Positions 15,185-29,662 of a stretch of DNA of 32,667 nucleotides are shown here, piece after piece. Within the stretch, counting starts at the first letter, position 1. Every line of letters starts with the position of its first letter. The stretch lies in IMG/VR virus record IMGVR_UViG_3300020463_000073, positions 1-32,667 of that record; one strand, 5' to 3'. The position numbers and the translations under genes were made by a program. Source of the DNA: a virus. The notes under the pieces are model-generated. The model was given only the letters and a program-made list of their open reading frames with translations. It was not told the origin of the DNA and did no database searches.

Positions 15185-15862
15185 ATGGCAGTAGTTACAC
15201 CAGATTTACCTGACATATTCGAGGAAGCCTACGAACGTGCAGGAATAGAACTAAACACAGGTTACGATCTTCGAACAGCAAGGCGTAGCCTTAATATTAT
15301 GTTACTTGAATGGCAGAACAGAGGTCTTAACCTGTTTACCATAGATGAAGGAACTCTACCTATAGCTGCGGGTACAGCAACGTATACTATGCCTGTGGAT
15401 ACTATAGACGTAATAGAACACAACATACGGACTGGCACTGGTACTAATCAGGTAGATACAGCCTTAGAACGTATATCTGTGTCTAATTATGCCGCTCAGT
15501 CTAACAAGAATACCACAGGCAAGCCTAGTCAGATATATGTACAAAGATTAGCTGCAGAGACAAAAGTAACGTTGTGGCCTGTGCCAGACACTTCTTACAC
15601 GTTATCGTTCTTTAGACTAAAGGGAATAGATGGTCTATCTACGGGTATTGGCACGACAGCAGCAATACCACCACGATTTATACCGTGTCTTGTTGCAGGG
15701 CTTGCTTATCAAATAGCTATGAAGAAGCCTGAGTCATCAGCTAGAGTTGTCCCTCTAAAACAAGAGTATGAGTATCAGTTTGAACTCGCAGCAGGTGAAG
15801 ACGCAGAGACAGCGTCTATAAGGTTCGTACCACACAACACGTTCTTGATAGGTGGTGGATGA
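15185..15862 (+). CDS. Head-tail connector or adaptor protein (P22 gp4-like type)
   Basis: The 225-aa product has a helical N-terminus (IFEEAYERAGIELNTGYDLRTARRSLNIMLLEWQNRGLNLFTI) followed by a beta-rich middle (GTATYTMPVDTIDVIEHNI; KVTLWPVPDTSYTLSFFRLKG) and a C-terminal helix. A helix bundle with an LxxLNxLLxEWxNRGxNLWTI-like motif is typical of proteins joining the portal to the tail in P22-like and marine phages. It probably forms a ring below the portal. The start follows TAGGAAATAATAA. Its stop overlaps the next start (ATGA). Confidence 0.7.
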   Translation: MAVVTPDLPDIFEEAYERAGIELNTGYDLRTARRSLNIMLLEWQNRGLNLFTIDEGTLPIAAGTATYTMPVDTIDVIEHNIRTGTGTNQVDTALERISVSNYAAQSNKNTTGKPSQIYVQRLAAETKVTLWPVPDTSYTLSFFRLKGIDGLSTGIGTTAAIPPRFIPCLVAGLAYQIAMKKPESSARVVPLKQEYEYQFELAAGEDAETASIRFVPHNTFLIGGG

Positions 15863-16719
15863 GGAGCGCTAGTAATAGATACGCTTTTGGTTTCTGTGAC
15901 AGAACTGGCTTCAGATACCCTCTGAATGATCTCGTTGACGAGTATAAGAATGGTGTGAAGACAGGTCTACGTGTGGGTAGAGACGTGGCTGACGATGATC
16001 ACCCACAAAACTTTCTTGGTAGAGTTAGGATATTTGATCCGCAAAACTTAACAAACGCTAGACCAGACACTGCCTTAGAAGCGAGTAGACAGCTATTTGG
16101 GTTTGGTCCTGTATGGAACCCTGCTCAATTTATGACTGCATCTGTTGGTAGGGTTACTGTAAGCTTTGATGAGAGCTTAGTAAACGCCACGGGTGTTTCC
16201 GCTACGGGTATTACTGGTGCAGCATCAGCGCTCACATTTACCGCAAGTGTTACGTCTCCAAATGCCGCTGCAGGTGCAGTTGGAACGGTTACAATAACAG
16301 GTGATATAGTAGAAACTATTCCTGTTACTGGGTCTTCTGCTACTGGTGAAGTTGGTTTTCCTAACCTATTAGTTAACGTAACATCATCAACTATAGTTAC
16401 GGTTGCCTCTGCAGGTTACGGAGGTGGTAATAAATATTATTTTGATAGTACGGAAGCACCTACAGTAAACCTTAGTGAAGGAAGCACTTATCTATTTGAT
16501 CAGTCAGACTCAAGTAATAGTGGTCACCCATTAAGATTTTCAACAACGTCAAATGGAACTCACGCGGGTGGTGTAGAGTACACAACAGGCGTTACAACTG
16601 TAGGAACCCCCGGAAACGCAGGTGCTTATACTCAGATCGTGGTAGCTTCAGGCGCACCAACTCTGTACTATTATTGCACAAACCACAGTGGTATGGGAGG
16701 CCAAGCGAATACACCTTAA
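15859..16719 (+). CDS. Virion protein with C-terminal cupredoxin-like domain
   Basis: This 286-aa protein has three parts. Residues 1-90 form a conserved N-terminal region (ASNRYAFGFCDRTGFRYPLNDL). Residues 95-185 are a VTG/ATG-rich beta segment like the repeats of the 29977-30963 protein. Residues 186-286 form a compact beta domain with SNSGHPLRFS (His223) and YYYCTNHSGMGG (Cys273, His276, Met279). These positions and the Cys-x2-His-x2-Met spacing match the type 1 copper ligands of amicyanin. The same domain occurs near the N-terminus of 19519-20733. The protein likely sits at the tail or a fibre base. Copper binding is inferred, not shown. Confidence 0.75.
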   Translation: MRSASNRYAFGFCDRTGFRYPLNDLVDEYKNGVKTGLRVGRDVADDDHPQNFLGRVRIFDPQNLTNARPDTALEASRQLFGFGPVWNPAQFMTASVGRVTVSFDESLVNATGVSATGITGAASALTFTASVTSPNAAAGAVGTVTITGDIVETIPVTGSSATGEVGFPNLLVNVTSSTIVTVASAGYGGGNKYYFDSTEAPTVNLSEGSTYLFDQSDSSNSGHPLRFSTTSNGTHAGGVEYTTGVTTVGTPGNAGAYTQIVVASGAPTLYYYCTNHSGMGGQANTP

Positions 16720-16770: not shown

Positions 16771-17157
16771 ATGCCCGGTAAAGTTGTTAAGAAAAAGAGC
16801 GGTAGTAAGATTCTTGGTAGTCTTAGCCCTCTGTATGGGATAGCTACAGGCAAAGGCGCATTTGGTAAATTGGCAAAAGCAGGTCTTAGCCCCGCAGGTA
16901 TGCTTGCAAAGAAGATGAAGAAAAATAAACAAGCACCAGTCGCTGCTACTGCCAGAGCAAATACAGGCGGGAAGCAGATCCCTGAAGGACCAGAAGGGAA
17001 TGGCCTAAGAGCCTTAAAAAAGAAAAACCCTGAACTTGTTAAAGAACGGTTGGGATACGCGAAACGTGGCGGTGTTATGAAGATGCAAGGTGGCGGTAGC
17101 ACATGCAGGGGTATGGGCGCAGCGATCAAAGGCGGCAACTTTAATAGGAATGGATAG
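16771..17157 (+). CDS. 128-aa basic Gly-rich protein with CRGMG tail
   Basis: It starts behind a perfect AAAGGAGATTAGAT site. The protein is Lys-rich throughout, with a hydrophobic Gly/Ala region (GSLSPLYGIATGKGAFGKLAKAGLSPAGMLAKKMKK, discussed in parts) and an AKRGGVMKMQGGG segment. The C-terminus STCRGMGAAIKGGNF shares the CRGMGxA..GGxF pattern with the next gene. There are no acidic patches or enzyme motifs. It is probably a nucleic-acid-associated or membrane-interacting virion protein, with the role inferred only from composition and context. Confidence 0.7.
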   Translation: MPGKVVKKKSGSKILGSLSPLYGIATGKGAFGKLAKAGLSPAGMLAKKMKKNKQAPVAATARANTGGKQIPEGPEGNGLRALKKKNPELVKERLGYAKRGGVMKMQGGGSTCRGMGAAIKGGNFNRNG

Positions 17158-17162
17158 TCATT

Positions 17163-17384
17163 ATGGGTAAAATGAAAGAAAGAGACTCAGAATTACAAGA
17201 TCTACGTGAGGAGTTCTTTGACGGTCCTATGTCAGATTCTATGAGTTTTGATCAGTTTTTGCTAAACAAAGGTAAGGGTGACTTACTTAGATTATCAGGT
17301 CGCAAGCCAATTAAAAAGAATATGGGTGGCTCACTGTGTCGTGGTATGGGTAAAGCCCGTGGCGGTCAATTTACAGTAAGGTAA
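17163..17384 (+). CDS. 73-aa protein with the same CRGMG C-terminal motif
   Basis: The N-terminal half is acidic (KERDSELQDLREEFFDGPMSD). The C-terminal half is basic (RKPIKKNMGG) and ends SLCRGMGKARGGQFTVR, nearly repeating the end of the preceding protein. It starts five bases after that gene, with only a weak ribosome-binding sequence (ATAGTCATT). The shared tail suggests that both proteins are recognised by the same partner. No family is assigned. Confidence 0.68.
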   Translation: MGKMKERDSELQDLREEFFDGPMSDSMSFDQFLLNKGKGDLLRLSGRKPIKKNMGGSLCRGMGKARGGQFTVR

Positions 17385-17389
17385 GCTAG

Positions 17390-18049
17390 ATGAACTATAC
17401 AGAGTTAGTACAGGCAATACAGGACTACACAGAGAACACAGAGACTTCTTTTGTGGGTAATATTCCTACGTTTGTACGACAGGCAGAGGAGAAGATACTC
17501 CGTCAGGTTCTTATTCCAGAGCTTCGAAAAGCTGCTACTGGTAGCACAGTTGCTAACTCTCAGTATCTTGCCAGACCAACAGATATGATTGCCGTGTATT
17601 CTATAGCTATCACAGATGGCAGTGGTAACTATAGCTACTTATTAAATAAGAATGTTACCTTTATGAAGGAAGCGTTTCCTGCAGGGGACACAGGCTTACC
17701 GAAGTATTACGGTCAATTTGTTGGTGGCACAACAAGTACACCGGGATACTTTATTCTAGGACCAACTCCAGACGCTGCTTACCTTGCTCAAATAAACTAT
17801 TATTACGATCCACCATCTATTGTAACTGCAGGTACAACATGGTTGGGTGACAATGCCGAAACAGCTCTCCTGTATGGCGCATTACTAGAAGCGTACTCTT
17901 ACATGAAGGGCGATACAGACCTCATGAACGAGTACAGAAAACAACATCAGCTCGCTATGCAAGCCTTTACTAAAGTGGGTGGCTTACTGCAACAAGACGG
18001 TTATAGAGATGGCGAAGAGGGATACAGCAAAGACGAGGCCAATGTTTAA
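17390..18049 (+). CDS. Tail connector or adaptor structural protein
   Basis: The 219-aa product starts with a helical region (MNYTELVQAIQDYTE, FVRQAEEKILRQVLIPELRK). The rest is beta-rich with PTDMIAVYSIAI, YFILGPTPDAAYLAQINYYYDPP and a helical C-terminus (TALLYGALLEAYSYMKGDTDLM). The FVRQAEEKI...R motif and the LLYGALLEAY helix are hallmarks of a widespread phage adaptor family usually annotated as a virion structural or tail tubular protein. It probably joins the head-tail connector of 15185-15862 to the tail hub. The small gene that follows overlaps its end. Confidence 0.7.
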   Translation: MNYTELVQAIQDYTENTETSFVGNIPTFVRQAEEKILRQVLIPELRKAATGSTVANSQYLARPTDMIAVYSIAITDGSGNYSYLLNKNVTFMKEAFPAGDTGLPKYYGQFVGGTTSTPGYFILGPTPDAAYLAQINYYYDPPSIVTAGTTWLGDNAETALLYGALLEAYSYMKGDTDLMNEYRKQHQLAMQAFTKVGGLLQQDGYRDGEEGYSKDEANV

Positions 18050-18335
18050 GTTTAATATAGACATACCAAAAGAACCTATAGTTAATATACAAACTACAGA
18101 GAATAGAGGGTTTACACCTGACGAAGTGGCAGAGAGATGTGTGGATAAGCTTATAAGCGTTTCCGAAAATGCACATCCTGCTATTCGAGATCAGGCTCAA
18201 GCCTTCCAAAAGCACATGGAAAAGACGGTTGCATTTTATATGCGAGAAGCTATTCGCAGTGACCGCACAACCGTGTATAATGCCTTGAAAGATGCAGGGC
18301 ATCCTAAACTTGCCGAGCTAATAAGGAGATTATGA
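18042..18335 (+). CDS. 97-aa helical protein
   Basis: The start is ATG 18042 (MFKFNIDIPKEP), inside the last codons of the adaptor gene and preceded by GAGG. A longer frame opening at 17979 lacks a ribosome-binding site. The N-terminus is extended and the rest is helical (PDEVAERCVDKLISVSE, DQAQAFQKHMEKTVAFYMREAI, YNALKDAGHPKLAELIRRL). Small helical proteins in this place are common in marine podovirus-like operons without assigned roles. It could be a chaperone or a connector plug. Confidence 0.65.
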   Translation: MFKFNIDIPKEPIVNIQTTENRGFTPDEVAERCVDKLISVSENAHPAIRDQAQAFQKHMEKTVAFYMREAIRSDRTTVYNALKDAGHPKLAELIRRL

Positions 18336-18336
18336 T

Positions 18337-18783
18337 ATGGCATTTTCTGGCAACTTTATGTGTTCGTCCTTCAAGCAAGAACTTCTTGAGGGAGGACATA
18401 ACTTCAAAAACTCAGGAGGGCATACATTCAAGTTAGCAATGTATACAAACAGCGCTTCTTTCAACGCAGCTACAACTGCCTACACTACTTCTAACGAGGT
18501 AACTGGGTCTGGTTATTCTGCAGGTGGTGGAACTCTAACAAGAGTAGACCCATCATTAAGTGGCACGACAGCGTTAACAGATTTCGCTGACCTGACATTT
18601 ACAAGTGCAACTGTGACAGCTCGTGGAGCTTTGATCTATAACACTACAACAGGTGGTGGATCAGGCACATCAGACACAGTGGTTGTACTAGACTTCGGTT
18701 CTGACAAGACCTCTACAGCGGGTGACTTTACTATTCAGTTCCCTGCAGCGGATGCTTCTAACGCTATCATTCGCATAGCTTAA
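18337..18783 (+). CDS. 148-aa beta-rich structural protein
   Basis: The start is behind AAGGAGATTATGAT. The N-terminus AFSGNFMCSSFKQELLEGGHNF is followed by Thr/Ser/Gly-rich strands (TFKLAMYTNSASF, LTFTSATVTARGALIYNTT). The C-terminus is DFTIQFPAADASNAIIRIA. This layout is one I associate with a conserved marine-phage virion protein encoded at the head of fibre clusters. No enzymatic motif is visible. It probably forms part of the tail tip or fibre attachment site. Confidence 0.68.
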   Translation: MAFSGNFMCSSFKQELLEGGHNFKNSGGHTFKLAMYTNSASFNAATTAYTTSNEVTGSGYSAGGGTLTRVDPSLSGTTALTDFADLTFTSATVTARGALIYNTTTGGGSGTSDTVVVLDFGSDKTSTAGDFTIQFPAADASNAIIRIA

Positions 18784-18795
18784 TGGAGCCTTACT

Positions 18796-19509
18796 GTGGT
18801 AAAATTTGCAGATCGAGTTAAGGTAAGTACATCGACCACAGGCACAGGAACTGTGACCCTTGGTTCTGCGGAAGCAGGTTTTCAGACTTTTGCTGATGGC
18901 GGTATCTCTAACGGGGATACCGTCAGATACGTTATAGAGGACGGAACCGCCTTTGAGATAGGACAAGGTGTATACACGCATTCAGGTACGACCCTAACAA
19001 GGGTACTATCATCCAGTTCAACAGGATCATTACTAAACCTATCAGGTAGCGCAGTCCTGTTTATCAGCCCTAGTGCTGAAGATCTAACTCTCTCTGGTGC
19101 TGCTCACGACTTTACTAGCTTTACAGCAACTGCAAACCAGACAACATTTACAGTAAACTATGCTGTTGGGAACATCCTCGTGTTTATGAACGGGGCCAAG
19201 CTAAACAGCGCAGATTTTACAGCCACAAACGGAACGTCAGTGGTTCTTGCTTCTGGGGCAACTGTAGGTGACATTGTTGAGGTTGTGGAGTATGGTGGGG
19301 CATCAGCTAACTACTCGACAACATCTTTTACGGCAACAGCAAATCAGACTGCATTCTCTGGAAGTTATAATGTAAACAAGTCTGCAGTGTATCTAAACGG
19401 TGTACTTTTGCTGCCAACAACAGATTATTCGATAAGCGCATCAGCGGTGACCTTGGCGTCAGGGGCTTCGTTGGGCGACATCTTGCAAGTTCAACAATAT
19501 GCTATTTAG
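18796..19509 (+). CDS. Tail-fibre shaft protein with two tandem 60-residue repeats
   Basis: GTG start preceded by TGGAG. The 237-aa product begins [22 protein letters not shown], a typical phage fibre head-binding domain. Two tandem copies of a repeat follow: [10 protein letters not shown]...VFMNGAKL...[19 protein letters not shown] (about 105-165), then [10 protein letters not shown]...VYLNGVLL...[19 protein letters not shown] (about 175-237). The pattern of NQTxF, xVYxNGxxL and GDIxxVxxY recurs in fibre shafts that trimerise. It opens the fibre cluster and probably attaches at the tail base. Confidence 0.75.
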
Positions 19510-19518
19510 GAATTTGAC

Positions 19519-20733
19519 ATGACTATAAACAGAAATTTAGCAAAGTTTGCTCCAAGTATTAACACTTCAGGTAAAGCGGCAGTCGCTACAATTACAGTTA
19601 CGGTTGTTAATTCAGGTGGTAACAAGTATGCTATGGATGGTACAGCTCAACAAACTGTGTCTCTTTCTAAAGGAATTACATACCGTTTTGACAACAGTGA
19701 TAGCTCAAACAGCGGTCATCCACTTGCTTTCTCTACAACTTCTAACGGAAGTCATGGTGGGGGTTCAGCATTTACTACAGGAATTACGACAGTAGGAACT
19801 GCAGGTAGTGCAGGTGCTTATGTAGAGGTTACATTAGAACAAGACGCAGCAGCTACCCTTTATTACTATTGCACAAATCACAGCGGCATGGGCGGCACGG
19901 TAAAAACCGCATATGGCAATTCAAATGTAGTTGAAGACACTACTCCGCAGCTAGGCGGCAATCTTGATGTAAACGGTAACTCAATCGTGTCAGCATCAAA
20001 TGGTAACATATCAATTACGCCAAACGGTTCAGGTAAAGTTATCCTTGACGGTCTTTCTCATCCAACAGCGGATGGCAGTGCAGGGCATGTTTTAAAAACA
20101 GATGGCTCTGGTAACCTAGCGTTTGCATCTGTTGGCTCCCTTTCTGGTTCAGGGATTGCTAATGTAGTAGATGACAGCTCTCCACAGCTAGGCGGCAACT
20201 TAGATATTAACGGTAATGACATTGTCTCAACATCTAATGCTAACATAGACATTATTCCTCACGGCACTGGTGATGTTAACTTAGGTGCTGATACGGTAAT
20301 GGTTGGCGACAATAACGCTAATGCAACGATTACTACACAAGGTACTGGAGATTTAACTCTAAATACTAACTCAGGGACAAACTCTGGAACGGTAACTATT
20401 GCTGATGGCGCAAATGCAAACATATCAATTACACCTAATGGTTCTGGTAAGGTTGTCATCGATGGACTTAGTCATCCCACAGCAGATGGGAGCAATGGAC
20501 AGGCTCTCGTAACAAACGGTAGCGGTGTTCTTAGCTTCTCTACAATATCAGGCGGTGGCGGTGGTGGAGCCACAGGTGGTGGTAGTGACGAGATTTTTTA
20601 TGAGAACGATCAAGCCGTGACAACTAACTATACAGTAACTGCTAGTCACAACGCCGTAACCGCAGGGCCTATAACAGTAAACAACGGCATAACAGTAACG
20701 ATTCCTTCTGGAGTTAGATGGGTTGTAGTATAA
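19519..20733 (+). CDS. Tail fibre with N-terminal cupredoxin-like domain and repeated shaft
   Basis: This 404-aa protein starts behind TAGGAATTTGAC. Residues about 24-130 repeat the domain seen in 15859-16719, with His67 (NSGHPLAFS), Cys118, His121 and Met124 (YYYCTNHSGMGG). The shaft follows, with two copies of DxxPQLGGNLDxNG and two of ISITPNGSGKVxxDGLSHPTADGS. After a Gly-rich linker (GGGGGGATGGG) comes a C-terminal trimerisation-type domain (DEIFYENDQAVTTNYTV ... TVNNGITVTIPSGVRWVVV). It is a classic fibre build apart from the unusual putative copper domain. Its stop overlaps the first propeller gene as TAATG. Confidence 0.8.
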   Translation: MTINRNLAKFAPSINTSGKAAVATITVTVVNSGGNKYAMDGTAQQTVSLSKGITYRFDNSDSSNSGHPLAFSTTSNGSHGGGSAFTTGITTVGTAGSAGAYVEVTLEQDAAATLYYYCTNHSGMGGTVKTAYGNSNVVEDTTPQLGGNLDVNGNSIVSASNGNISITPNGSGKVILDGLSHPTADGSAGHVLKTDGSGNLAFASVGSLSGSGIANVVDDSSPQLGGNLDINGNDIVSTSNANIDIIPHGTGDVNLGADTVMVGDNNANATITTQGTGDLTLNTNSGTNSGTVTIADGANANISITPNGSGKVVIDGLSHPTADGSNGQALVTNGSGVLSFSTISGGGGGGATGGGSDEIFYENDQAVTTNYTVTASHNAVTAGPITVNNGITVTIPSGVRWVVV

Positions 20734-21869
20734 TGAGTGAATTAAAAGTCGATACCATAGTTAATTTAGCGGGTACGGGCAAACCGAACCTACCAGTATC
20801 CCCTACGTTAGGAGGTGCGGCTCTATCTTCAGCAAATACCTACTCTTATACATCATCAGGAACAGAACCTAGTAGCCCTAAAAATGGAGCTATATGGTGG
20901 GATAGCTCTAACAATGAAGTATATCTTTACATAGCGGGTGAGTTTAAAAAAGTTACGCTAAATGCTTCTGCTGCTGCTTTTTCTTGGGGTGGTGATAGAG
21001 GAATCGTTTTTGGTACTAGCTCTTCCTACAATGATATCATGTATTTTAATATCGCTGGTAGTGGTGGGGGTTCAGCAAATTTCGGTGATATGACATTAGA
21101 AAGAAGTACGACAAGTGCAGGTGGTTCTGCTAGTAGAGTTCTTATGGGAGGTGGTTATGGCGGTTCGGCCAATTCTGGTAGAAGTGACATTATAGATTAT
21201 ATTACTCCATCAAGTCCCGGCAATGCGACAGATTTTGGAAATTTAACCGCAGGTAGAAATGCTTTACAGGGAATTAGCAACGGAACGAGATGTCTCTTCG
21301 CAGGTGGATATACCAATGGTCAAGGCGTAGGACACGCTAATTGGACGACTGTTATTGATTATGTGACGATAGCTACCACAGGAAACGCAGCCTCTTTTGG
21401 AAATCTAACTGCATTAGCATATAATCTTGGAGGCACTGGCGCAGGAGATGGAACAAGAGGTCTGTTTATGGGTGGTATCGAAACCACTAACAAACAAATA
21501 GAGTATGTTACTTACGCTACAACAGGTAATTCTGCTGATTTTGGTGACTTGATTTACACTGTTGATAGAAACTCAGCTTGCTCTGATGCAACTAGAAGTG
21601 TTTCTTTTGGTGGTGCGGCTAGTCATAGCCCTTCACACAGAAATATAGAATATGTCACAACTCAAACATTAGGTAATGCCACAGACTTTGGTAATTTGAC
21701 TAACCAACATACTTCGAGCGGTAGTATGTCTAATGGCACAATAGCGATTGCTCAAACAGGTATAGACTTGGAAAAAGTGACAATTCAAACAACAGGGAAT
21801 GCAACAGATTTTGGGGACTTATTAGAATCCAGAACTAGCAATTCAGCCTCATCAGGAAGCCCATCATGA
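20733..21869 (+). CDS. Propeller adhesin 1 of 7 (N-module class A)
   Basis: This 378-aa protein starts at ATG 20733 (MSELKVDTIVNLAGTGKPN), overlapping the fibre stop. An upstream ATG at 20718 lies inside the fibre gene and is not needed. The N-module contains SSPKNGAIWWDSSN and YLYIAGEFKK. Six repeats end SANFGDM, ATDFGNL, AASFGNL, SADFGDL, ATDFGNL and ATDFGDL. A short C-terminal segment (LLESRTSNSASSGSPS) can supply the outer strand that closes the first blade, which begins GDRGIVFG, as in kelch propellers. It is probably a receptor-binding fibre tip. It shares its class A N-module with adhesin 3 and its last-repeat end with adhesin 7. Confidence 0.8.
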   Translation: MSELKVDTIVNLAGTGKPNLPVSPTLGGAALSSANTYSYTSSGTEPSSPKNGAIWWDSSNNEVYLYIAGEFKKVTLNASAAAFSWGGDRGIVFGTSSSYNDIMYFNIAGSGGGSANFGDMTLERSTTSAGGSASRVLMGGGYGGSANSGRSDIIDYITPSSPGNATDFGNLTAGRNALQGISNGTRCLFAGGYTNGQGVGHANWTTVIDYVTIATTGNAASFGNLTALAYNLGGTGAGDGTRGLFMGGIETTNKQIEYVTYATTGNSADFGDLIYTVDRNSACSDATRSVSFGGAASHSPSHRNIEYVTTQTLGNATDFGNLTNQHTSSGSMSNGTIAIAQTGIDLEKVTIQTTGNATDFGDLLESRTSNSASSGSPS

Positions 21870-22981
21870 GTACATTAAAAGTAGATACACTAAAAAACGG
21901 ATCTAGCTCTGCGATTGATTTTCCGCAAAACCTAAAGATAGGTGGAGCAGGGGTCATACAGGGGTACACTGTATCTTCTAGTGAACCCAGTAGCCCCGCG
22001 ACAGGTGATTTCTGGTGGAATAGCAGTGACGAAAAACTCTATCGTTATATCAATGGTGCGTTTAAAGAAATAACTATTGCACCATCAGTTATCAACTATG
22101 GAGATAGAGGATTTTCTATTGGTGATTATAATGAAACCGCTGCAAGTAGAATACATTATTGGGACATAAGCACAGCAAGTAACGCAGCACTTTTTGGAAA
22201 CTTAATTCAAAACTCTCACATAGCAGCAGCTTGTACTAGTGGGGTATATGCTTTTAGATGTGGTGGTTCAAATACAAACTCGTCATCACAAAGAGTAAAT
22301 ACAATAGAGAGATGGACTTGTGCAACCCTAGGAAATTCTGCTGATTTTGGTGACTTAACAGCGACTTGTTACTGGTCTTCAGGACATTCAGACGGCACTA
22401 CTGGTATAGTAAATCATGGGCAAGGTTCTAGCGTTAATACTAATATAGACAGATTTACTATGGCTACAGCAGGTAACGCTACTGATCACGGTGACACAAC
22501 AGTAGGTAGATCTCATATTGCCGTTGCAGCTAATTTAACAAGAATGGTCAATATGGGAGGTCATACTAACACTAAGGTAAACACTATAGACTACATAACG
22601 ATTGCTTCTGCGGGCAACGCTACTGATTTTGGTGACTTAATTGCAGGAAATATGTATCATGCAGGGATGGGTACTGGTTCAGGAAACAGAGCTTTGTCTA
22701 CAGGTGGTAGACCCGCTTCTTCATATTATGATGGAATAGAATATATAGATATTGATACACCGGGCAATGCAACTGATGCAGGTAATTTACTTACTGGTAT
22801 TGGCTACCACGGTGCAACTTCAAACGCAACAAAAGGTCATGCTTACGGTGGCTACAGTAGTAGTGGAGAGTATGGAGAGATACAACAAACTATACTAGCA
22901 ACAGGTGCTAACGCCACTGATCATGGGGATTTATTAGTTGATGATGAATATCAGACATCCACATCAGGAAACGCATCGTGA
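21866..22981 (+). CDS. Propeller adhesin 2 of 7 (N-module class B)
   Basis: This 371-aa protein starts with ATGA overlap, and TCAGGAAG in the end of adhesin 1 serves as ribosome-binding site. The class B N-module (MSTLKVDTLKNGSSSAIDF, NLKIGGAGVIQGYT) is shared with adhesin 7. Six repeats end AALFGNL, SADFGDL, ATDHGDT, ATDFGDL, ATDAGNL and ATDHGDL. The His variants in repeats 3 and 6 and the DTPGNATD repeat 5 match adhesin 6 repeat by repeat, although adhesin 6 has a different N-module. It ends STSGNAS. A role in receptor recognition is inferred. Confidence 0.8.
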   Translation: MSTLKVDTLKNGSSSAIDFPQNLKIGGAGVIQGYTVSSSEPSSPATGDFWWNSSDEKLYRYINGAFKEITIAPSVINYGDRGFSIGDYNETAASRIHYWDISTASNAALFGNLIQNSHIAAACTSGVYAFRCGGSNTNSSSQRVNTIERWTCATLGNSADFGDLTATCYWSSGHSDGTTGIVNHGQGSSVNTNIDRFTMATAGNATDHGDTTVGRSHIAVAANLTRMVNMGGHTNTKVNTIDYITIASAGNATDFGDLIAGNMYHAGMGTGSGNRALSTGGRPASSYYDGIEYIDIDTPGNATDAGNLLTGIGYHGATSNATKGHAYGGYSSSGEYGEIQQTILATGANATDHGDLLVDDEYQTSTSGNAS

Positions 22982-24183
22982 CAAAACAACTAAAGGTAGA
23001 TAGCGTTGTTAACGTAGCAGGTACAGGAAAACCAAACTTTCCTGTCAGCCCCACTTCTGGAGGCGCTGCACTATCTGCCTTAAACACTCACTCATATACG
23101 TCTTCTGCCACAGAACCTAGCAGCCCCAAGAACGGAGCGATTTGGTGGGACAGCGCAAATAACAAGGTGTATGTCTATGCAAACGGTGAGTTTAAAGAAA
23201 TAACCTTAAATACTGCTTACCCTTCTTCATACGTCAACGCTACACACTTTGGTGATCGTGGTCTTAGATTTGGTGGCTATGATACGGGCGTTGATTACTC
23301 AAATGTAATAGATTACTGGGACATAACATCTGCAGGAAATGCTACCGATTTTGGTGATTTAACCGTAAAAAGAAATTATGTTGCCTCTTGTTCTAACGCA
23401 AGTAGAGCTGTTTCGATGGGTGGCGCATCAACTCAAAACGCTGATGGAACTATTTATACTGCTAGTGGAACAACTATAATTGATTATGTAACAATAGCCA
23501 ATACTGGCAATGCCACAGACTTTGGCGATTTGCTTTTCAGAAGAAACAGATCGGCTTGTGAAAGCAATGGAACAAGAGCAGTATTTGGAGGAGGTACGAC
23601 CCGTCAACCTGATGATGGTAGCGGTACTACATCTATTGTTAATAACATAGAGTATATTACAATAGCTAATACAGGGAACGCTACAGATTTTGGCGATTTG
23701 ACAGTAGCTAGAGAGCGTCTTTCAGCAGCATCTAATGGACCTAGAATAGTTTTTGTTGGTGGTAAGGACTCATCAGATTACAACACTATGGATTATGTTA
23801 CTGGTGATACCACAGGAAATGCCACGGACTTTGGTGATATGACAAATCAAGTTAGCAACTTGGGAGCTACAGGGACAGGAACTGGGGATCGAGCCATAAT
23901 ATTTGGTGGTAATGGTAGTAGTTATACAAATGTTATTCAATATTTTGCTGTTTCAAACACAGGAAACGCTGCAGATTTTGGAGACTGTATAGGGAACGAT
24001 TCTTATGCTTCTGCTTGTTGTAATTCAACTAAAGCTCAGTTTGTTGGTGGTTATAACAGTGCCGTAGGTGATATAAATAGAATACAAGAAGTAACAATGG
24101 CTACTCTAGGAAATGCTACAGATTTTGGTGATATAACCAACGCAGTGTATAGTTCGGGAGCAACATCAGGAGCGGCTTCATGA
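22978..24183 (+). CDS. Propeller adhesin 3 of 7 (N-module class A, GTG start)
   Basis: This 401-aa protein starts with GTG in a GTGA overlap, preceded by TCAGGAAACGCATC. The N-module (TKQLKVDSVVNVAGTGKPNF, SSPKNGAIWWDSANNKVYVY) is very close to that of adhesin 1. Six repeats end ATDFGDL three times, then ATDFGDM, AADFGDC and ATDFGDI, the most regular set in the array. Variable loops between GG and the IEY strand are of different lengths, and the third is long (TTRQPDDGSGTTSIVNN). It ends TSGAAS. It is the only array member not starting with ATG, which could lower its relative expression. Confidence 0.8.
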   Translation: MTKQLKVDSVVNVAGTGKPNFPVSPTSGGAALSALNTHSYTSSATEPSSPKNGAIWWDSANNKVYVYANGEFKEITLNTAYPSSYVNATHFGDRGLRFGGYDTGVDYSNVIDYWDITSAGNATDFGDLTVKRNYVASCSNASRAVSMGGASTQNADGTIYTASGTTIIDYVTIANTGNATDFGDLLFRRNRSACESNGTRAVFGGGTTRQPDDGSGTTSIVNNIEYITIANTGNATDFGDLTVARERLSAASNGPRIVFVGGKDSSDYNTMDYVTGDTTGNATDFGDMTNQVSNLGATGTGTGDRAIIFGGNGSSYTNVIQYFAVSNTGNAADFGDCIGNDSYASACCNSTKAQFVGGYNSAVGDINRIQEVTMATLGNATDFGDITNAVYSSGATSGAAS

Positions 24184-25358
24184 GTGAGTTTAATACAGAG
24201 GACATCGTAAACCGAGCAGGTACAGGCAAACCAGACCTGACTAATGGTTTTAACATTAACGGCTCTGACAGTGGTGTAAATCCTCACAAACACACAGAAA
24301 GTGCAAATGAACCTTCTAGTCCATCGAATGGAGATGCTTGGCTAGATACAGACAACGATGTATACAAAGTTTATATTGATGGAGAATGGAAAGACTGGTT
24401 TGGGACTACCGCTAAATTATGGTACGGAGACAGAGCTGTTAGAGTTGGTGTTGGGAGAGCTAACCCATCTCAATTATCAGGAAGCGCAGCTAGTGTAGTC
24501 CCTAATAATCAAATACATAGGTATGATATTACAACATTAGGAAATGCTGTAGATTTTAAAGACAGAACTGTTTCAGCTATTAGGCAAGGCGGTTGTGGCA
24601 ACGGTCAAAATGCTTACATTTTTGGTGGGACTACAACAGGCGAAAATACTAGTGGTGCTATAAACACAATAGAATACTTTTCCATATCAAATTCAACAAA
24701 TGCAGCAGACTTTGGCGATTTATCAGTAGTAGATAAAGACGGAGCCGCTGTTTCTGATGGAACGTATGGCATACATTCTCTTGGTTTTCAAAATAGTGGA
24801 TCTTATAGTAACACTATTGAGTATATTACTATGGATACCCCCGGAAATGCTACAGACTTTGGAGATCGTACTGTATCAGGTATTTTACAATCTTCAGTAA
24901 ATAATGCCACCAGAGGATGTTTTGCGGGAGGTTATGATGGGTCAACATTAGCTACTATAGATTACATTACGATGGGTACATCTGGAAATGCGACAGACTT
25001 CGGTGACCTTACTGTGGCAGGTTATGGTTTTGATGCAGGTGCGGGTTCTGGTAGCGGTGATCGTGGTATATTTGGTTCTATGTATAGGTCTGGTACAATG
25101 GATTATATAACAATCTCTAACACAGGAAACGCCACTGACTTTGGTGATTTGTATGTTGGCCTTAGTTTAGATGTTTATCAAACTCGATATGGTGGAGGTG
25201 TATCAAACGCTACAAGGGCTGTTTGGAGTGCTTCTGCCAATAGTAATGTCATGCAATATGTAACTATGGCAACAACGGGAAATGCAGTAGATTTTGGAGA
25301 TCAAGTCAGTTCTACTTCTAACGATGCTCAGTGTAATGTTTCAGGTAGTGCATCATGA
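24180..25358 (+). CDS. Propeller adhesin 4 of 7 (N-module class C)
   Basis: This 392-aa protein starts with ATGA overlap after TCAGGAGCGGCTTC. The class C N-module (EDIVNRAGTGKPDLTNGFNIN, GSDSG, EPSSPSNGDAWLDTDND) is shared with adhesins 5 and 6. Six repeats end AVDFKDR, AADFGDL, ATDFGDR, ATDFGDL, ATDFGDL and AVDFGDQ. The AVDFKD variant in repeat 1 and the SISNSTNA segment in repeat 2 are shared with adhesin 5, including nearly identical DNA. It ends VSGSAS. It is probably a recent duplicate or conversion partner of adhesin 5. Confidence 0.8.
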   Translation: MSEFNTEDIVNRAGTGKPDLTNGFNINGSDSGVNPHKHTESANEPSSPSNGDAWLDTDNDVYKVYIDGEWKDWFGTTAKLWYGDRAVRVGVGRANPSQLSGSAASVVPNNQIHRYDITTLGNAVDFKDRTVSAIRQGGCGNGQNAYIFGGTTTGENTSGAINTIEYFSISNSTNAADFGDLSVVDKDGAAVSDGTYGIHSLGFQNSGSYSNTIEYITMDTPGNATDFGDRTVSGILQSSVNNATRGCFAGGYDGSTLATIDYITMGTSGNATDFGDLTVAGYGFDAGAGSGSGDRGIFGSMYRSGTMDYITISNTGNATDFGDLYVGLSLDVYQTRYGGGVSNATRAVWSASANSNVMQYVTMATTGNAVDFGDQVSSTSNDAQCNVSGSAS

Positions 25359-26509
25359 GTGAGTTTAAAATTAGAAAACTTACAGACAGAGCGGGTACAG
25401 GCGCACCCAACTTTACTCATGGTTTTAACATTAATGGTTCTGATAGCGGTCTAGTTGGATTTACTCACACAGAAGGATCTAGTGAGCCTAGCAGTTCATC
25501 AAATGGAGATACATGGTGGGACACAGGAAACGACAAATACTATGTGTATATAGATGGTGCATTTAAAGAGTATTCTATTGTTGCTGCAGGGCCACTTTAT
25601 TATGGAGACAGGCTAGTAAGAGTGGGCTTCGCTACAGCAAAAAATGACATACATCGTCTTGATATTACAACATTAGGTAATGCTGTAGATTTTAAAGATC
25701 TAAATAGAACTAGTGCAAACAGAGCTTCAGCTTGTAGCAATGAAGCAAACGCTTACATTTTTAATGGAAACGCAGCGGCTAACGGTACTGGCGCAGAGCA
25801 AAATAGTATTAGTTATTTTTCCATATCAAATTCAACAAATGCATCAGATTTCGGAGATTCTACTGCTTCTACAAGTGCAGGTATGGCATGTTCAGATGCA
25901 ACTACTGGTTGCAATGCCCTAGGTTGGACTGGGAGCGCAGCATTAAATACCATTGATAAAATTACTATGGCTACACCCGGTAATGCTACTGACTTTGGGG
26001 ATTTAACAGTAGCTAGAGCGCCCTTTGGAAATTCTGCAGGGTCTAATGGAAGCAGAGGTATATTTGCTTTAGGTTATGATGGCTCTGGTGGGGTAAACAC
26101 TATTGACTATATAACTATAGCAAACGCAGGTAATGCCACTGATTTTGGTGATCATGTAGCTGCATCATACGGATCAGCCGCAGGAGGCACTGGTACAGGG
26201 GATAGACTAATATTTGCAACATTTTATGGTTACGGCTCTAAGATTAGTTATGTGACTGTATCTACAACAGGTAACGCTGCTGATTTTGGTAACACCACTA
26301 TGACTAGTAGCGCTATTAGTTTTTATTGTGGAGTAGCAGCCAATTCTGAGAGATGTGTTATCCAATCAGGTGGTTATATAGGTGGCGGTGCTTCAAACAT
26401 CATAGAATATGTAACAATGTCTACTTTAGGAAACGCTGCAGATTTTGGAGATCAAGCAACTAATGAAGAGCAATCCCATCAGGTTTGCACATCAGGAGCA
26501 GCATCATGA
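25355..26509 (+). CDS. Propeller adhesin 5 of 7 (N-module class C)
   Basis: This 384-aa protein starts with ATGA overlap, where the adhesin 4 end supplies TCAGGTAG. The N-module (MSEFKIRKLTDRAGTGAPNF, THGFNINGSDSG) is nearly the same as in adhesin 6. Six repeats end AVDFKDL, ASDFGDS, ATDFGDL, ATDFGDH, AADFGNT and AADFGDQ. Repeats 1 and 2 share long identical DNA with adhesin 4 while later repeats diverge. This suggests local conversion or stronger selection on the later blades. It ends TSGAAS. Confidence 0.8.
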   Translation: MSEFKIRKLTDRAGTGAPNFTHGFNINGSDSGLVGFTHTEGSSEPSSSSNGDTWWDTGNDKYYVYIDGAFKEYSIVAAGPLYYGDRLVRVGFATAKNDIHRLDITTLGNAVDFKDLNRTSANRASACSNEANAYIFNGNAAANGTGAEQNSISYFSISNSTNASDFGDSTASTSAGMACSDATTGCNALGWTGSAALNTIDKITMATPGNATDFGDLTVARAPFGNSAGSNGSRGIFALGYDGSGGVNTIDYITIANAGNATDFGDHVAASYGSAAGGTGTGDRLIFATFYGYGSKISYVTVSTTGNAADFGNTTMTSSAISFYCGVAANSERCVIQSGGYIGGGASNIIEYVTMSTLGNAADFGDQATNEEQSHQVCTSGAAS

Positions 26510-27690
26510 GTGAATTTGACTTAGAAGAAATTACAGATCGTGCAGGAACAGGAGCGCCTAACTTTACTCATGGTTTTAACATAAATGGATCTGACAGTGG
26601 CATATCTGTATTTACTCATACTGTAGGTACTACAGAACCATCTAGCCCTTCTAACGGTGATACATGGTGGAACACTGATAACGATTCCTACAATGTGTAT
26701 ATAGACGGTGAGTGGAAGGGATGGTTGGGAGATAGTTATTCTTCAACTTCTAATTACGGAGATAGGGGCTTTGTTTTTGGTGATGACTCATCAACGGACA
26801 TAACCAGAATACAGTATTTCAATCATACATCTTCAGGAAATGCATCAGACTTTGGTGATTTACCCACAGGTGCTTATGGCGCAGCAGGATGCACTAATGC
26901 AATAAATGCATTTAGATTGGGAGGAAATTCAACAACATCTTCTTATCAAAAAACAAACACCATAGAAACTTGGGTTTGCGCTACTACGGGTAATGCAACT
27001 GATTTTGGAGACATAGGGGCGTATACCATGTACAGCCATGCTAATTCAGACGGCACTATTGGCATAGTAGTATGGGGAAGAAGTAAAAGTTCTGCGGGTC
27101 AAGCCAATGGTGATTATACTAATGATGTAGAAAGATTTACTATGGCTTCAGCAGGAAACGCTTCTGATCATGGTGACTTAACTTATAGTCGTGGTTATGG
27201 TGGTTCTGTAGCTAACGCTACTAGAATGGTTAATTTTGGAGGATATAACGCCACCGATCCTTATTACCATAAAGACTGTGATTATTTGACAATGGCAACT
27301 GCGGGCAACTGCGTAGATTTCGGTGACTTAATAAAACATAATCATTACTGTACAGGAGTAGGTAGCGGTTCTGGGGATAGAGGTCTTCAGATGGGTGGCA
27401 TGGCAAGAGTTCCTCCGAGTGGTGGCTTCTATACAGACGAAATACAGTATGTTGATATTAGCACCCCCGGAAATGCTACAGATTCAGGTGATTTGGTCTA
27501 TGCTTCAGGCGAAATGGTAGCAGGTTCAAACAATGCAACAAATGGTTTTAAGTCGGGTGGATACAATAGCGGCACTCCTCAAAATTACATACAAAAAAGT
27601 GTATTGGCTACAGGGGCAAATGCTACTGATCATGGTGATCTACTTACAGCAACATTTGTTTGCACAGGCACATCGGGGAATGCAGCATGA
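26506..27690 (+). CDS. Propeller adhesin 6 of 7 (class C N-module, adhesin-2-type propeller)
   Basis: This 394-aa protein starts at ATG 26506 (MSEFDLEEITDRAGTGAPN), with ATGA overlap and AGGAG nine bases upstream. An in-frame ATG at 26485 lies inside adhesin 5 and is less likely. The N-module is class C, but the six repeats (ASDFGDL, ATDFGDI, ASDHGDL, CVDFGDL, ATDSGDL, ATDHGDL) follow adhesin 2 blade for blade. Shared features include NTIE-W-CAT, DGT-GIV, RFTMA, TRMVN and LATGANATDHGDLL. It is therefore a natural chimera of an adhesin-5-type head and an adhesin-2-type tip. It ends TSGNAA. Confidence 0.8.
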   Translation: MSEFDLEEITDRAGTGAPNFTHGFNINGSDSGISVFTHTVGTTEPSSPSNGDTWWNTDNDSYNVYIDGEWKGWLGDSYSSTSNYGDRGFVFGDDSSTDITRIQYFNHTSSGNASDFGDLPTGAYGAAGCTNAINAFRLGGNSTTSSYQKTNTIETWVCATTGNATDFGDIGAYTMYSHANSDGTIGIVVWGRSKSSAGQANGDYTNDVERFTMASAGNASDHGDLTYSRGYGGSVANATRMVNFGGYNATDPYYHKDCDYLTMATAGNCVDFGDLIKHNHYCTGVGSGSGDRGLQMGGMARVPPSGGFYTDEIQYVDISTPGNATDSGDLVYASGEMVAGSNNATNGFKSGGYNSGTPQNYIQKSVLATGANATDHGDLLTATFVCTGTSGNAA

Positions 27691-28805
27691 GTACACTAAA
27701 AGTAGATACAATTAGAAACTACGACAGTGCCGTTGATTTCTCTCAGGGCCTTAATATTGGCGGGACGAGCATAATCCAGAACTATACCGAAAGTGCTGAT
27801 ATGCCATCCTCTCCTAGCAATGGAGACTACTGGTGGGATACTGGTAACAATAAGCTATACAAGTATATGGATAGTGGATTTAAAGAGCTTGGTATTGCTC
27901 CCCCACCTAGCAATCCTTGGAGTGGTGATAGAGGTATGATTGCAGGAGGTGAAACATCAACTGCTTCGATTTCAAATGTTGTTCAGTATTTCGACATTAC
28001 TACAGCAGGTAACACTCAAGACTTTGGTGACCTAACAACAACAACAGAAAATGCTGCAGGTGCTAGTAGTTCTGCAAGAGGTTTGAGTTTAGGAGGTTCA
28101 GGAACATCAGGTCTTGCGGAGATACAGTATGTAACCATTTCAACTCTTGGTAACGCTCAAGACTTTGGTGATTTAGCTACTGGTGTTTATTATCATGCAG
28201 CCTGTTCTGATGGCACAAAAGCGTTTGTAAATGGTGGGTATAATGGTAGCTTTCTCAATCAAATACAGTATGTAACTATTGCAACTACTGGCAACGCTGC
28301 TGATTGGGGGGATCTGGTAGGTACATCTTGGCTTGGTATGGCGGCAACCGCAGATACTACAAGAGTCGTTCACTACGTTGGTCATCGTAGTGGATACACT
28401 AACGCCATAGATTATTATTCTACTGCTAGTGCAGGAAATGCTTCAGACTTTGGAAATGCAACTGCAGCTACAGGACAAGCAGGAGCATGTTCAGATGCTA
28501 CAAGAGCTGTAATTGGAGGCGGTACTCCTGATGGTGGTACTACCATCTATAATAAAATAGACTACCTTACTATACAAACCACTGGTAACGCTGCTGATTT
28601 TGGCGATCTTACTGCGGCACGTTTTAGACCTGACGCATGTGCTAATTATACTAGAGGCGTTTTTTCTGGTGGGAACGCCGCATCAAGCACTAAGCAAAAT
28701 GTTATGGATTTTGTAACTATTCAAACCACTGGTAATGCAACAGACTTTGGTGATCTCTTAGAGGCTACAGTCAATCATTGTTCATTTTCAGGGTCGCCAT
28801 CTTAA
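27687..28805 (+). CDS. Propeller adhesin 7 of 7 (N-module class B)
   Basis: This 372-aa protein starts at ATG 27687 (MSTLKVDTIRNYDSAVDF) with ATGA overlap. The upstream in-frame ATG at 27660 lies inside adhesin 6. The class B N-module matches adhesin 2. Six repeats end TQDFGDL, AQDFGDL, AADWGDL, ASDFGNA, AADFGDL and ATDFGDL. The IQTTGNATDFGDLLE end and the final SGSPS match adhesin 1 rather than adhesin 2. It closes the array. The next gene has its own strong ribosome-binding site rather than a coupled junction. Confidence 0.8.
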   Translation: MSTLKVDTIRNYDSAVDFSQGLNIGGTSIIQNYTESADMPSSPSNGDYWWDTGNNKLYKYMDSGFKELGIAPPPSNPWSGDRGMIAGGETSTASISNVVQYFDITTAGNTQDFGDLTTTTENAAGASSSARGLSLGGSGTSGLAEIQYVTISTLGNAQDFGDLATGVYYHAACSDGTKAFVNGGYNGSFLNQIQYVTIATTGNAADWGDLVGTSWLGMAATADTTRVVHYVGHRSGYTNAIDYYSTASAGNASDFGNATAATGQAGACSDATRAVIGGGTPDGGTTIYNKIDYLTIQTTGNAADFGDLTAARFRPDACANYTRGVFSGGNAASSTKQNVMDFVTIQTTGNATDFGDLLEATVNHCSFSGSPS

Positions 28806-28816
28806 AGGAGAAAAAA

Positions 28817-29662
28817 ATGGGAAAGACTAAGACTAAAAAGAAAACTAACGTAGTAACGAAGCCAATCACGTTTTCGTTACCTATAGAGTCGTCTGAGAAT
28901 ATCAATCAGGTAGCTGCTGCAAGGGTGGCAGATAAGTTACCAGAGATAGATCAGGCAACCAGAGCGTTTGATCGTAATAACTCAGCGACAACTTTGTCTA
29001 TGATGACACTCACTATGCTCAATGGTCACTCGCCTATGCGTATGCTTCGTCAGATTACAGCAGAGGTAGAGAAACGTAAGATGGCACTTGCAGAAGCGCA
29101 GGTCAGCCATGCTGAGAAGCGTGTAGAAATATTAGACCTTGAAGAAGAGGATGACATTGTCTCTGAGGCAAAGCTCAAAGCAGCTCGTCATGGCCTGACA
29201 ATGATGGAGCATAAGATAAACGGATCTATCAAAGACATTGCGGTTCTTATTGATAGCTATGAGAATATAAAAGAAAAGTGGGACATAGATGTCTGGGATG
29301 AAGAGCTTTTCGAAAGAGAAGAGAAACGTCACCATGTCCGTAGGGGCTTTGAGCTTATGTACCGAAACCTGATGGATGGTGGCAGAGTTTCTACTTCAAC
29401 TATAGAATACATGCAGCAATATGGCGTTCACCCACAGGTGGCTATGACTGAAGTGTCTGGATACATAAACCACACTGCACAGCAGATAAAAAATCATGTA
29501 CTGCCGCATTCCAATGATCTTGAAGAATTTATGGATCAAATGGCTGATAAGTATTATAAGAATGCAGACAAGACTGCTGAAAGAATATTTGGTAAATCAG
29601 ATTTTCTGAATCCCGAATATATGTTAAGACTAGAAAAAACGGAGAAAAAAGATGATACTTGA
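28817..29662 (+). CDS. 281-aa helical phage protein, unknown function
   Basis: The start is ATG 28817, behind a perfect AAAGGAGAAAAAA site. An upstream in-frame ATG at 28778 lies inside adhesin 7. The N-terminus is Lys-rich (GKTKTKKKTNVVTK). The rest is nearly all helix with strong coiled-coil potential (TAEVEKRKMALAEAQVSHAEKR, LDLEEEDDIVSEAKLKAARHG) and contains DVWDEELFEREEKRHHVRRGFELMYRN. It ends in a charged region. There is no beta-fibre character, unlike its neighbours. It may be a tail-assembly chaperone or internal virion protein. The family is not recognised with confidence. Confidence 0.7.
   Translation: MGKTKTKKKTNVVTKPITFSLPIESSENINQVAAARVADKLPEIDQATRAFDRNNSATTLSMMTLTMLNGHSPMRMLRQITAEVEKRKMALAEAQVSHAEKRVEILDLEEEDDIVSEAKLKAARHGLTMMEHKINGSIKDIAVLIDSYENIKEKWDIDVWDEELFEREEKRHHVRRGFELMYRNLMDGGRVSTSTIEYMQQYGVHPQVAMTEVSGYINHTAQQIKNHVLPHSNDLEEFMDQMADKYYKNADKTAERIFGKSDFLNPEYMLRLEKTEKKDDT

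Follow-up and report, generated by a model that had tools for sequence, protein, structure and literature searches.

Ordered heads and exchangeable kelch-type propellers in a tandem array of putative adhesin genes of marine phages

The IMG/VR virus record IMGVR_UViG_3300020463_000073, a linear sequence of 32,667 bases called here the window and analysed at its full length, includes genes for terminase, portal, GroES and capsid, besides tail-fibre-like ones. The terminase shares 45-48% identity with the terminases of phage 023Pt_psg01 and of the pelagiphages HTVC027P and HTVC023P. This paper deals with an array of seven open reading frames (ORFs) of this marine phage, g1 to g7, all on the same strand at 20733-28805. 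The genes stand in tandem, and every start overlaps the preceding stop in an ATGA or GTGA; the start of g6, for example, is at 26506. Each product has 371-401 amino acids: a head of about 70 residues, a linker, and a repeat domain of about 290-310 residues in which a GNATDFGDL-like motif occurs in six or seven copies. The repeat domain, for which a propeller fold is predicted below, will be called the propeller. The shuffling of heads and propellers in this array is strongly supported, in g6 in particular.

Conflicting trees within the array

A first-pass annotation of the window had sorted the heads into three classes, which both alignment and tree recover: A (g1, g3), B (g2, g7) and C (g4, g5, g6). 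The head order of the array is ABACCCB. The same annotation had claimed that the propellers group otherwise, and had proposed that separate trees be built for the two parts. These trees conflict, with the support of approximately unbiased (AU) tests; congruent trees with strong support, named beforehand as the outcome contrary to shuffling, were not found. The head tree supports {g1,g3} at 98/97*, {g2,g7} at 93/92 and {g4,g5,g6} at 80/93, the star being on the first only. The propellers pair g2 with g6 (100/99*), g4 with g5 (100/98*) and, more weakly, g1 with g7 (98/97*). On the head data the AU test rejects {g2,g6} (p-AU 0.0011) and {g1,g7} (2.6e-6); on the propeller data it rejects {g4,g5,g6} (1.8e-4), {g5,g6} (1.6e-58), {g2,g7} (6.6e-6) and, less strongly, {g1,g3} (0.028).

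The clearest chimera is g6, whose class C head is 75% identical to that of g5, and whose propeller is 51% identical to that of g2 and 34-39%, depending on the method, to that of g5. The details by which its propeller had first been likened to that of g2, namely DHGD, TPGNATD and LATGANATDHGDLL, are present in the sequence; TPGNATD is not confined to the two genes, being present in g4 and g5 too.

The proposed link between g1 and g7 held in part. The strings IQTTGNATDFGDLLE and SGSPS are indeed common to both, but the similarity is local: it is concentrated in the last 30 or so residues, the last blade, with 74% amino acid identity there against 41% over the whole propeller. When related phages are included, the nearest propeller is L002_4 for g7 (68%) and L002_6 for g1 (56-58%), both in one of the related loci described in the next section. 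The two genes as mutual nearest propellers were thus rejected. Table 1 gives the coordinates of all parts.

Table 1. Positions in the window of the heads, linkers and propellers of the array, and of the two adjacent genes
Feature	Position	Linker	Strand	Remark
Gene upstream of array, overlaps g1 start	19519..20733		+	residues 20-129 match PHROG 677 'baseplate wedge tail fiber protein connector'
g1 head, class A	20733..20948	20949-20990	+	230-nucleotide direct repeat with g3 head, 71%
g1 kelch-like propeller	20991..21866		+	L084 carries g6-type propeller instead
g2 head, class B	21866..22066	22067-22099	+	55-nucleotide repeat with g7 start, 78%
g2 propeller	22100..22978		+	sister to g6 propeller
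g3 head, class A, GTG start	22978..23196	23197-23250	+	
g3 propeller	23251..24180		+	75% nucleotide identity over 933-column alignment (23250-24171) to L135 gene with unrelated N-terminus
g4 head, class C	24180..24392	24393-24425	+	about 219-nucleotide repeat with g5, g6 heads
g4 propeller	24426..25355		+	sister to g5 propeller
g5 head, class C	25355..25567	25568-25603	+	
g5 propeller	25604..26506		+	
g6 head, class C	26506..26718	26719-26757	+	
g6 propeller	26758..27687		+	g2-type behind class C head; six-bladed kelch fold (predicted)
g7 head, class B	27687..27884	27885-27923	+	
g7 propeller	27924..28802		+	closest is L002_4, 68% amino acid identity
Conserved gene directly downstream of array	28814..29662 (listed ORF starts 28778)		+	marker for fetching relatives

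Heads and propellers among related phages

A scan with the downstream marker gene yielded 80 loci, and in most of them family genes lie directly upstream of the marker. The 191 family ORFs were reduced to 142 with a recognised head, 132 of them complete, and to 99 after dereplication at 97%. Their heads fall into the same classes A, B and C, joined in one subgroup by a divergent class D in the middle position. The class labels are those of the head tree itself: its cleanness, its 3 class changes and the match of class between nearest heads in 99 of 99 genes hold by construction, and are not evidence. The recovered arrays have the head orders ACB, ADB, AACCBB, AACBCB, ACBCB, AACBC, ABCC, ABC and, in the window, ABACCCB; six loci yield only one or two heads (BC, B, C, CB). 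The A head comes first in every recovered array that contains one, and each array recovered with three or more heads holds an A, a B and a C-type head.

Identity along the protein was compared between genes of different loci, using 1370 same-class and 2756 different-class pairs of class A, B and C genes among the 99 (the six class D rows were excluded). The same-class pairs exceed the different-class pairs by 27.1 points in residues 1-42, 10.2 in residues 43-72, 8.2 in residues 73-84, and 0.87 in residues 85-394. When labels are shuffled within loci, none of 1000 shuffles reaches the observed difference in the three head and linker segments; in residues 85-394, 452 of 1000 do, with a shuffled mean of +0.84. 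If pairs with propellers at least 80% identical are left out, the difference becomes +0.17, below its own shuffled mean of +0.81. Since the difference in residues 85-394 lies at the shuffled mean, no dependence of propeller sequence on head class is detectable.

The propeller tree of the 99 genes has 33 class changes, where the minimum is 3 and the shuffled mean 49.9, and its starred branches alone force changes in every class: 9 for B, 7 for C, 6 for A and 3 for D. Among the 145 between-locus pairs whose heads are at least 80% identical, the propellers are less than 60% identical in 127, 60-80% in 4, and at least 80% in 14. The small number of intermediate values behind like heads points to replacement, not gradual drift.

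The profile of identities also bears on the place of the joint. The crossover had first been located in the conserved WWD...FKE stretch, but residues 43-72 still track head class (+10 points), and the shuffled mean is reached only from residue 85. The WWD segment was rejected both by this profile and by nucleotide alignments, which place the change within the linker, as far as the codons of a W/Y-x-G-D-R motif. The boundary is this linker/GDR motif, about 25-30 codons past WWD. In the AlphaFold2 model of g6, residues 76-79, inside the linker, form the only stretch in which the predicted local distance difference test (pLDDT) falls below 50.

Individual pairs of phages display the exchange directly. 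The loci L029, L027 and L034 have six heads in the same order, 85-97% identical, while all 18 slot-matched propellers are just 39-55% identical. The propellers of L029_3 and L029_4 recur at 95% and 89% in L034, one slot on, in slots 4 and 5, whose heads are the second C and the first B respectively. In the second of these pairs, L029_4 (class C) and L034_5 (class B), the propellers are about 77-100% identical in nucleotides, and the heads are 47% identical. The nucleotide alignment of L029_1 and L034_1 gives 90-97% in the head, mostly 20-70% in the propeller, and 80-100% in the next head: the divergence begins in the linker and extends nearly to the stop codon. In L004 and L007, the third propeller is 98% the same and the two C heads are in opposite order; at the nucleotide level, the flank upstream of L004_3 and L007_3 is about 100% identical, the heads, of different C subtypes, 63-87%, and the propellers 90-100%. 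The propellers of L018_1 and L023_2 are 85% identical, their heads 46%.

Two exchanges involve propellers of the window. Locus L084 is 87% identical in nucleotides to the window over 17091-20277 and 84% over 20413-20962, including a g1-like class A head; after a switch within the linker, its propeller shows 57% identity to that of g6 and 51% to that of g2. All three head classes are thus found in front of a single propeller lineage: A in L084, B in g2 and C in g6. The propeller of g3 recurs in L135 behind an unrelated N-terminus, with 75% nucleotide identity.

Could such patterns arise without recombination? Suppose that the genes evolved by tandem duplication only, that selection was purifying on the heads and diversifying on the propellers, and that the apparent reassortment is convergence or noise in fast-evolving repeats. 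The near-identical blades of the propellers, the many propeller pairs at the 40% background, and the weak deep branches of the propeller tree agree with this scenario. However, near-identical propellers behind unlike heads (L029_4/L034_5, L018_1/L023_2, L004_3/L007_3), sharp joints in the DNA, and bimodal propeller identities make it very improbable. Even less probable is that the chimeras were created by metagenomic assembly among repeated genes. The window is a single linear record, and repeats are prone to misassembly, but arrays recur at 97% identity or more in separately named contigs (L004/L005/L006, L023/L024/L025, L029/L032, L003/L071, L047/L048). Counting contigs on each side of a swap, L004 has three, L029 two, and L034, L007 and L084 one each. 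In the cases viewed, moreover, the joints fall at the linker, and not at random blades.

Route of exchange and signals at the joints

The first-pass annotation had spoken of module shuffling within one genome. The shuffling stands; its confinement to one genome does not, as the clearest joints lie between phages. Shuffling mainly inside each genome, by unequal crossing-over and conversion between tandem slots, would explain why g2/g6 and g4/g5 are mutual nearest propellers in the window, where same-class heads form direct repeats of 219-230 nucleotides at 68-74% identity. Moreover, the propellers shared in the slot shift between L029 and L034 and in the swapped head order of L004 and L007 can be accounted for without any foreign propeller. 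However, the nearest propeller lies in the same locus for just 5 of the 99 genes, against a mean of 3.4 when locus labels are shuffled, and window-type propellers are found in other phages, L084 and L135. The window is exceptional in this respect, since its genes (g2/g6, g4/g5) make up four of the five cases. At about 51-53% amino acid identity these pairs reflect old events, in which internal exchange is indistinguishable from the import of two related propellers. We consider a mainly internal process unlikely. Judged from the sequences, the rule in the group is a shared propeller pool, with exchange across the phage population.

A dedicated machine, either a diversity-generating retroelement or an invertible shufflon with its site-specific recombinase, would account for the fixed ends of the exchanged unit and for the conserved motif at its 5' joint. 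But in 12 records, possibly fragments, RVT_1 reverse transcriptase and Resolvase (serine recombinase) were matched in none, and tyrosine recombinase in two, neither the window nor those with the clearest swaps. The array holds a single, weak inverted repeat (74%), which does not pair two joints; and the alignments suggest that whole blocks change, not points directed by adenines. Such a machine is thus most improbable. In the same 12 records, RecT and the RecA family had no match, and ERF annealase was matched in two: L034, and L032, which has the same array as L029. We would rather propose that propellers are exchanged by short-homology recombination at the conserved linker/GDR codons.

At the other end of the propeller, a C-terminal SGx(A/P)S is present at 41 of 42 joints where genes overlap, and at 28 of 29 where a spacer separates them. 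In overlap joints, the terminal Ser-Gly codons read TCAGGA/GGR, which resembles a Shine-Dalgarno sequence. The terminal Gly codon is GGR in 40 of 41 overlap joints versus 12 of 28 spacer joints (Fisher test, 2e-7), and AGGA is found in 29 of 41 versus 3 of 28; these rows are related, not phylogenetically independent, and the p-values are indicative. A role of the motif purely as a ribosome-binding site was rejected, since it is just as common at joints where a spacer and a separate ribosome-binding site precede the next gene. Its conservation at both kinds of joints suggests that it is structural, with codon choice added on top. At the joints of the window (21844-27700), the invariant Ser-Gly codons probably also serve the next, overlapping gene as its ribosome-binding site. 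If so, a moved propeller would bring the translation signal of the next slot along.

Predicted fold, putative function and meaning

The AlphaFold2 model of g6 has a pLDDT of 89.5, with propeller blocks mostly above 90. The top Foldseek matches in the PDB are six-bladed kelch proteins, namely SAKe6 designs, KLHL12 and KEAP1 (best E-value 7.8e-17, with a target template modelling (TM) score of 0.88; target-normalised TM scores mostly 0.84-0.89), and phage kelch proteins (BcepSaruman, S-SKS1) are among the matches to viral models. From this model, we predict that the repeat domain is a kelch propeller of six blades, attached through a flexible linker and with the same fold as these proteins. Unlike known kelch propellers, it falls below the Pfam cut-offs, has a strong GNATDFGDL blade motif, and is fused to tail-type heads. 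For Kelch_1, g7 scores 14.0 bits where the gathering cut-off is 20.1, and just one of 71 member proteins matches a kelch family at an E-value of 0.01 or less. Searches of PDB sequences with heads and whole proteins gave nothing usable, and a PHROG search with 23 heads gave weak tail-fibre matches in a few, together with equally weak head-protein matches. The genes probably encode tail adhesins with swappable receptor-binding propellers, the heads serving in assembly as putative sockets.

Among cultured phages, tblastn finds no match for g3 and g6 at 1e-5, and for L029_4 only cyanophage S-SKS1 (two records). Propeller-specific scans of viral contigs with g6 and g2 found no relatives, although a later profile scan found L084. 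In HTVC027P and HTVC023P, which rank near the top by TerL, the family was not found in the stretches searched. The 9.85 kb contig NYWV01000059.1 (L162), from a metagenome-assembled genome labelled Porticoccaceae, carries a six-head array: it may be a hint at a host, or a mis-binned phage.

Some relatives carry variant genes. Behind the class B head of L011:5289-6911 lies a different, SBBP-like repeat domain (PF06739, 18.5 bits for a cut-off of 20.5), and sockets may thus hold other modules. Two class C heads (L009:7922-9985, L010:7691-9940) have about 300 extra amino acids between linker and propeller, and the start of the L010 propeller closely resembles that of L008_2. A YYC..H..GMG stretch, which we take from the motif to be cupredoxin-like, lies inside the class A head of L012:1344-2825 and L014:1611-3098, and in two window genes with tail-fibre PHROG matches, 15859-16719 and 19519-20733. 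In L004:3767-6532, other genes lie between slots 1 and 2, one of them with a Peptidase_S74 tail-fibre chaperone domain (E-value 1e-14).

The closest known analogue appears to be the tail-spike cluster TSP1-TSP4 of Ackermannviridae. In two papers on these phages (PMC8432352, PMC11414711), as many as four tail spikes are described as forming a branched complex held together by their N-terminal domains, and a conserved motif appears to be the point at which receptor modules pass from one spike type to another. Both systems have adjacent genes, for putative adhesins in the present array, with conserved N-termini and exchanged C-terminal modules, whose receptor role is predicted here. Unlike the cluster as described there, the array has up to seven slots, three small head classes and ATGA-coupled genes, with kelch propellers instead of beta-helical spikes, and sockets and propellers uncoupled group-wide. 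Pfam gave no match to an XD/gp10-like domain or a beta-helical spike module in 71 proteins or 23 heads; a profile-profile search for XD was not made. Metaviromic islands of marine phages, where host-recognition genes vary sharply between otherwise similar genomes (PMC3909814), are similar in kind, the variable unit of the array being resolved to a cassette within each tandem gene. That paper lists genes for tail fibres, C1q, lectins and carbohydrate-binding proteins, and contains neither 'kelch' nor 'propeller'. Among titles and abstract openings of the open-licence PMC literature, no description of tandem kelch-propeller arrays of marine phages, with class-ordered sockets and full uncoupling, was found.

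At the level of sequence, the class structure, the cassette boundaries, the slot-shifted propellers and the codon bias at the joint are established. We propose, with a probability of roughly 0.8, that the array is a tail adhesin locus of several slots, with ordered sockets and exchangeable propeller cassettes that recombine among the phages of the group. Each gene would encode three parts: a socket of about 70 residues, of class A, B or C, by which the protein is anchored in the tail; a short flexible linker; and a kelch-type propeller of six blades, whose most likely target is a host surface structure. The sockets would be maintained as an ordered set, and the propeller would be a DNA cassette that begins at the linker/GDR codons, ends at the stop codon, and is replaced or shifted between slots by presumably homology-driven recombination among these phages. 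Where genes overlap, the last Ser-Gly codons of the cassette would resemble the ribosome-binding site of the next gene.

Several observations weigh against this proposal, besides the kinship of the joints compared for codon bias. The propeller tree retains partial clustering by class, with 33 changes against 49.9 by shuffling, and the nearest propeller has the same head class in 62 of 99 genes, against 28.6 by shuffling; this residue suggests that inheritance is vertical in part. The heads have no solid match in Pfam (23 heads searched) or the PDB, and the g6 model is weak there, with blocks of residues 1-40 at 56-71. Finally, ERF, RecT, RecA, resolvase and tyrosine recombinase are all unmatched in the window and in 7 of the 11 other records, possibly fragments.

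A further conjecture, more tentative and in our opinion somewhat less likely than its negation, is that of a population-wide combinatorial display of adhesins: an ordered grammar of three sockets with 3-7 slots, one shared propeller pool in linkage equilibrium with the sockets, cassettes that carry the downstream ribosome-binding site, annealase-type recombination at the linker motif, and sockets that hold other modules too. If it is true, each virion presents several unrelated propellers simultaneously.

The proposal addresses an old question: how a phage changes its host range without breaking the assembly of its tail. Here, the parts for assembly and for recognition would be separable by sequence alone, within a few codons, in natural recombinants. 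The arrays would form a natural library of socket-propeller pairs, with the prediction that any propeller of the family works behind any of the three sockets, and could serve as a clean marker of which uncultured marine phages recombine with each other.

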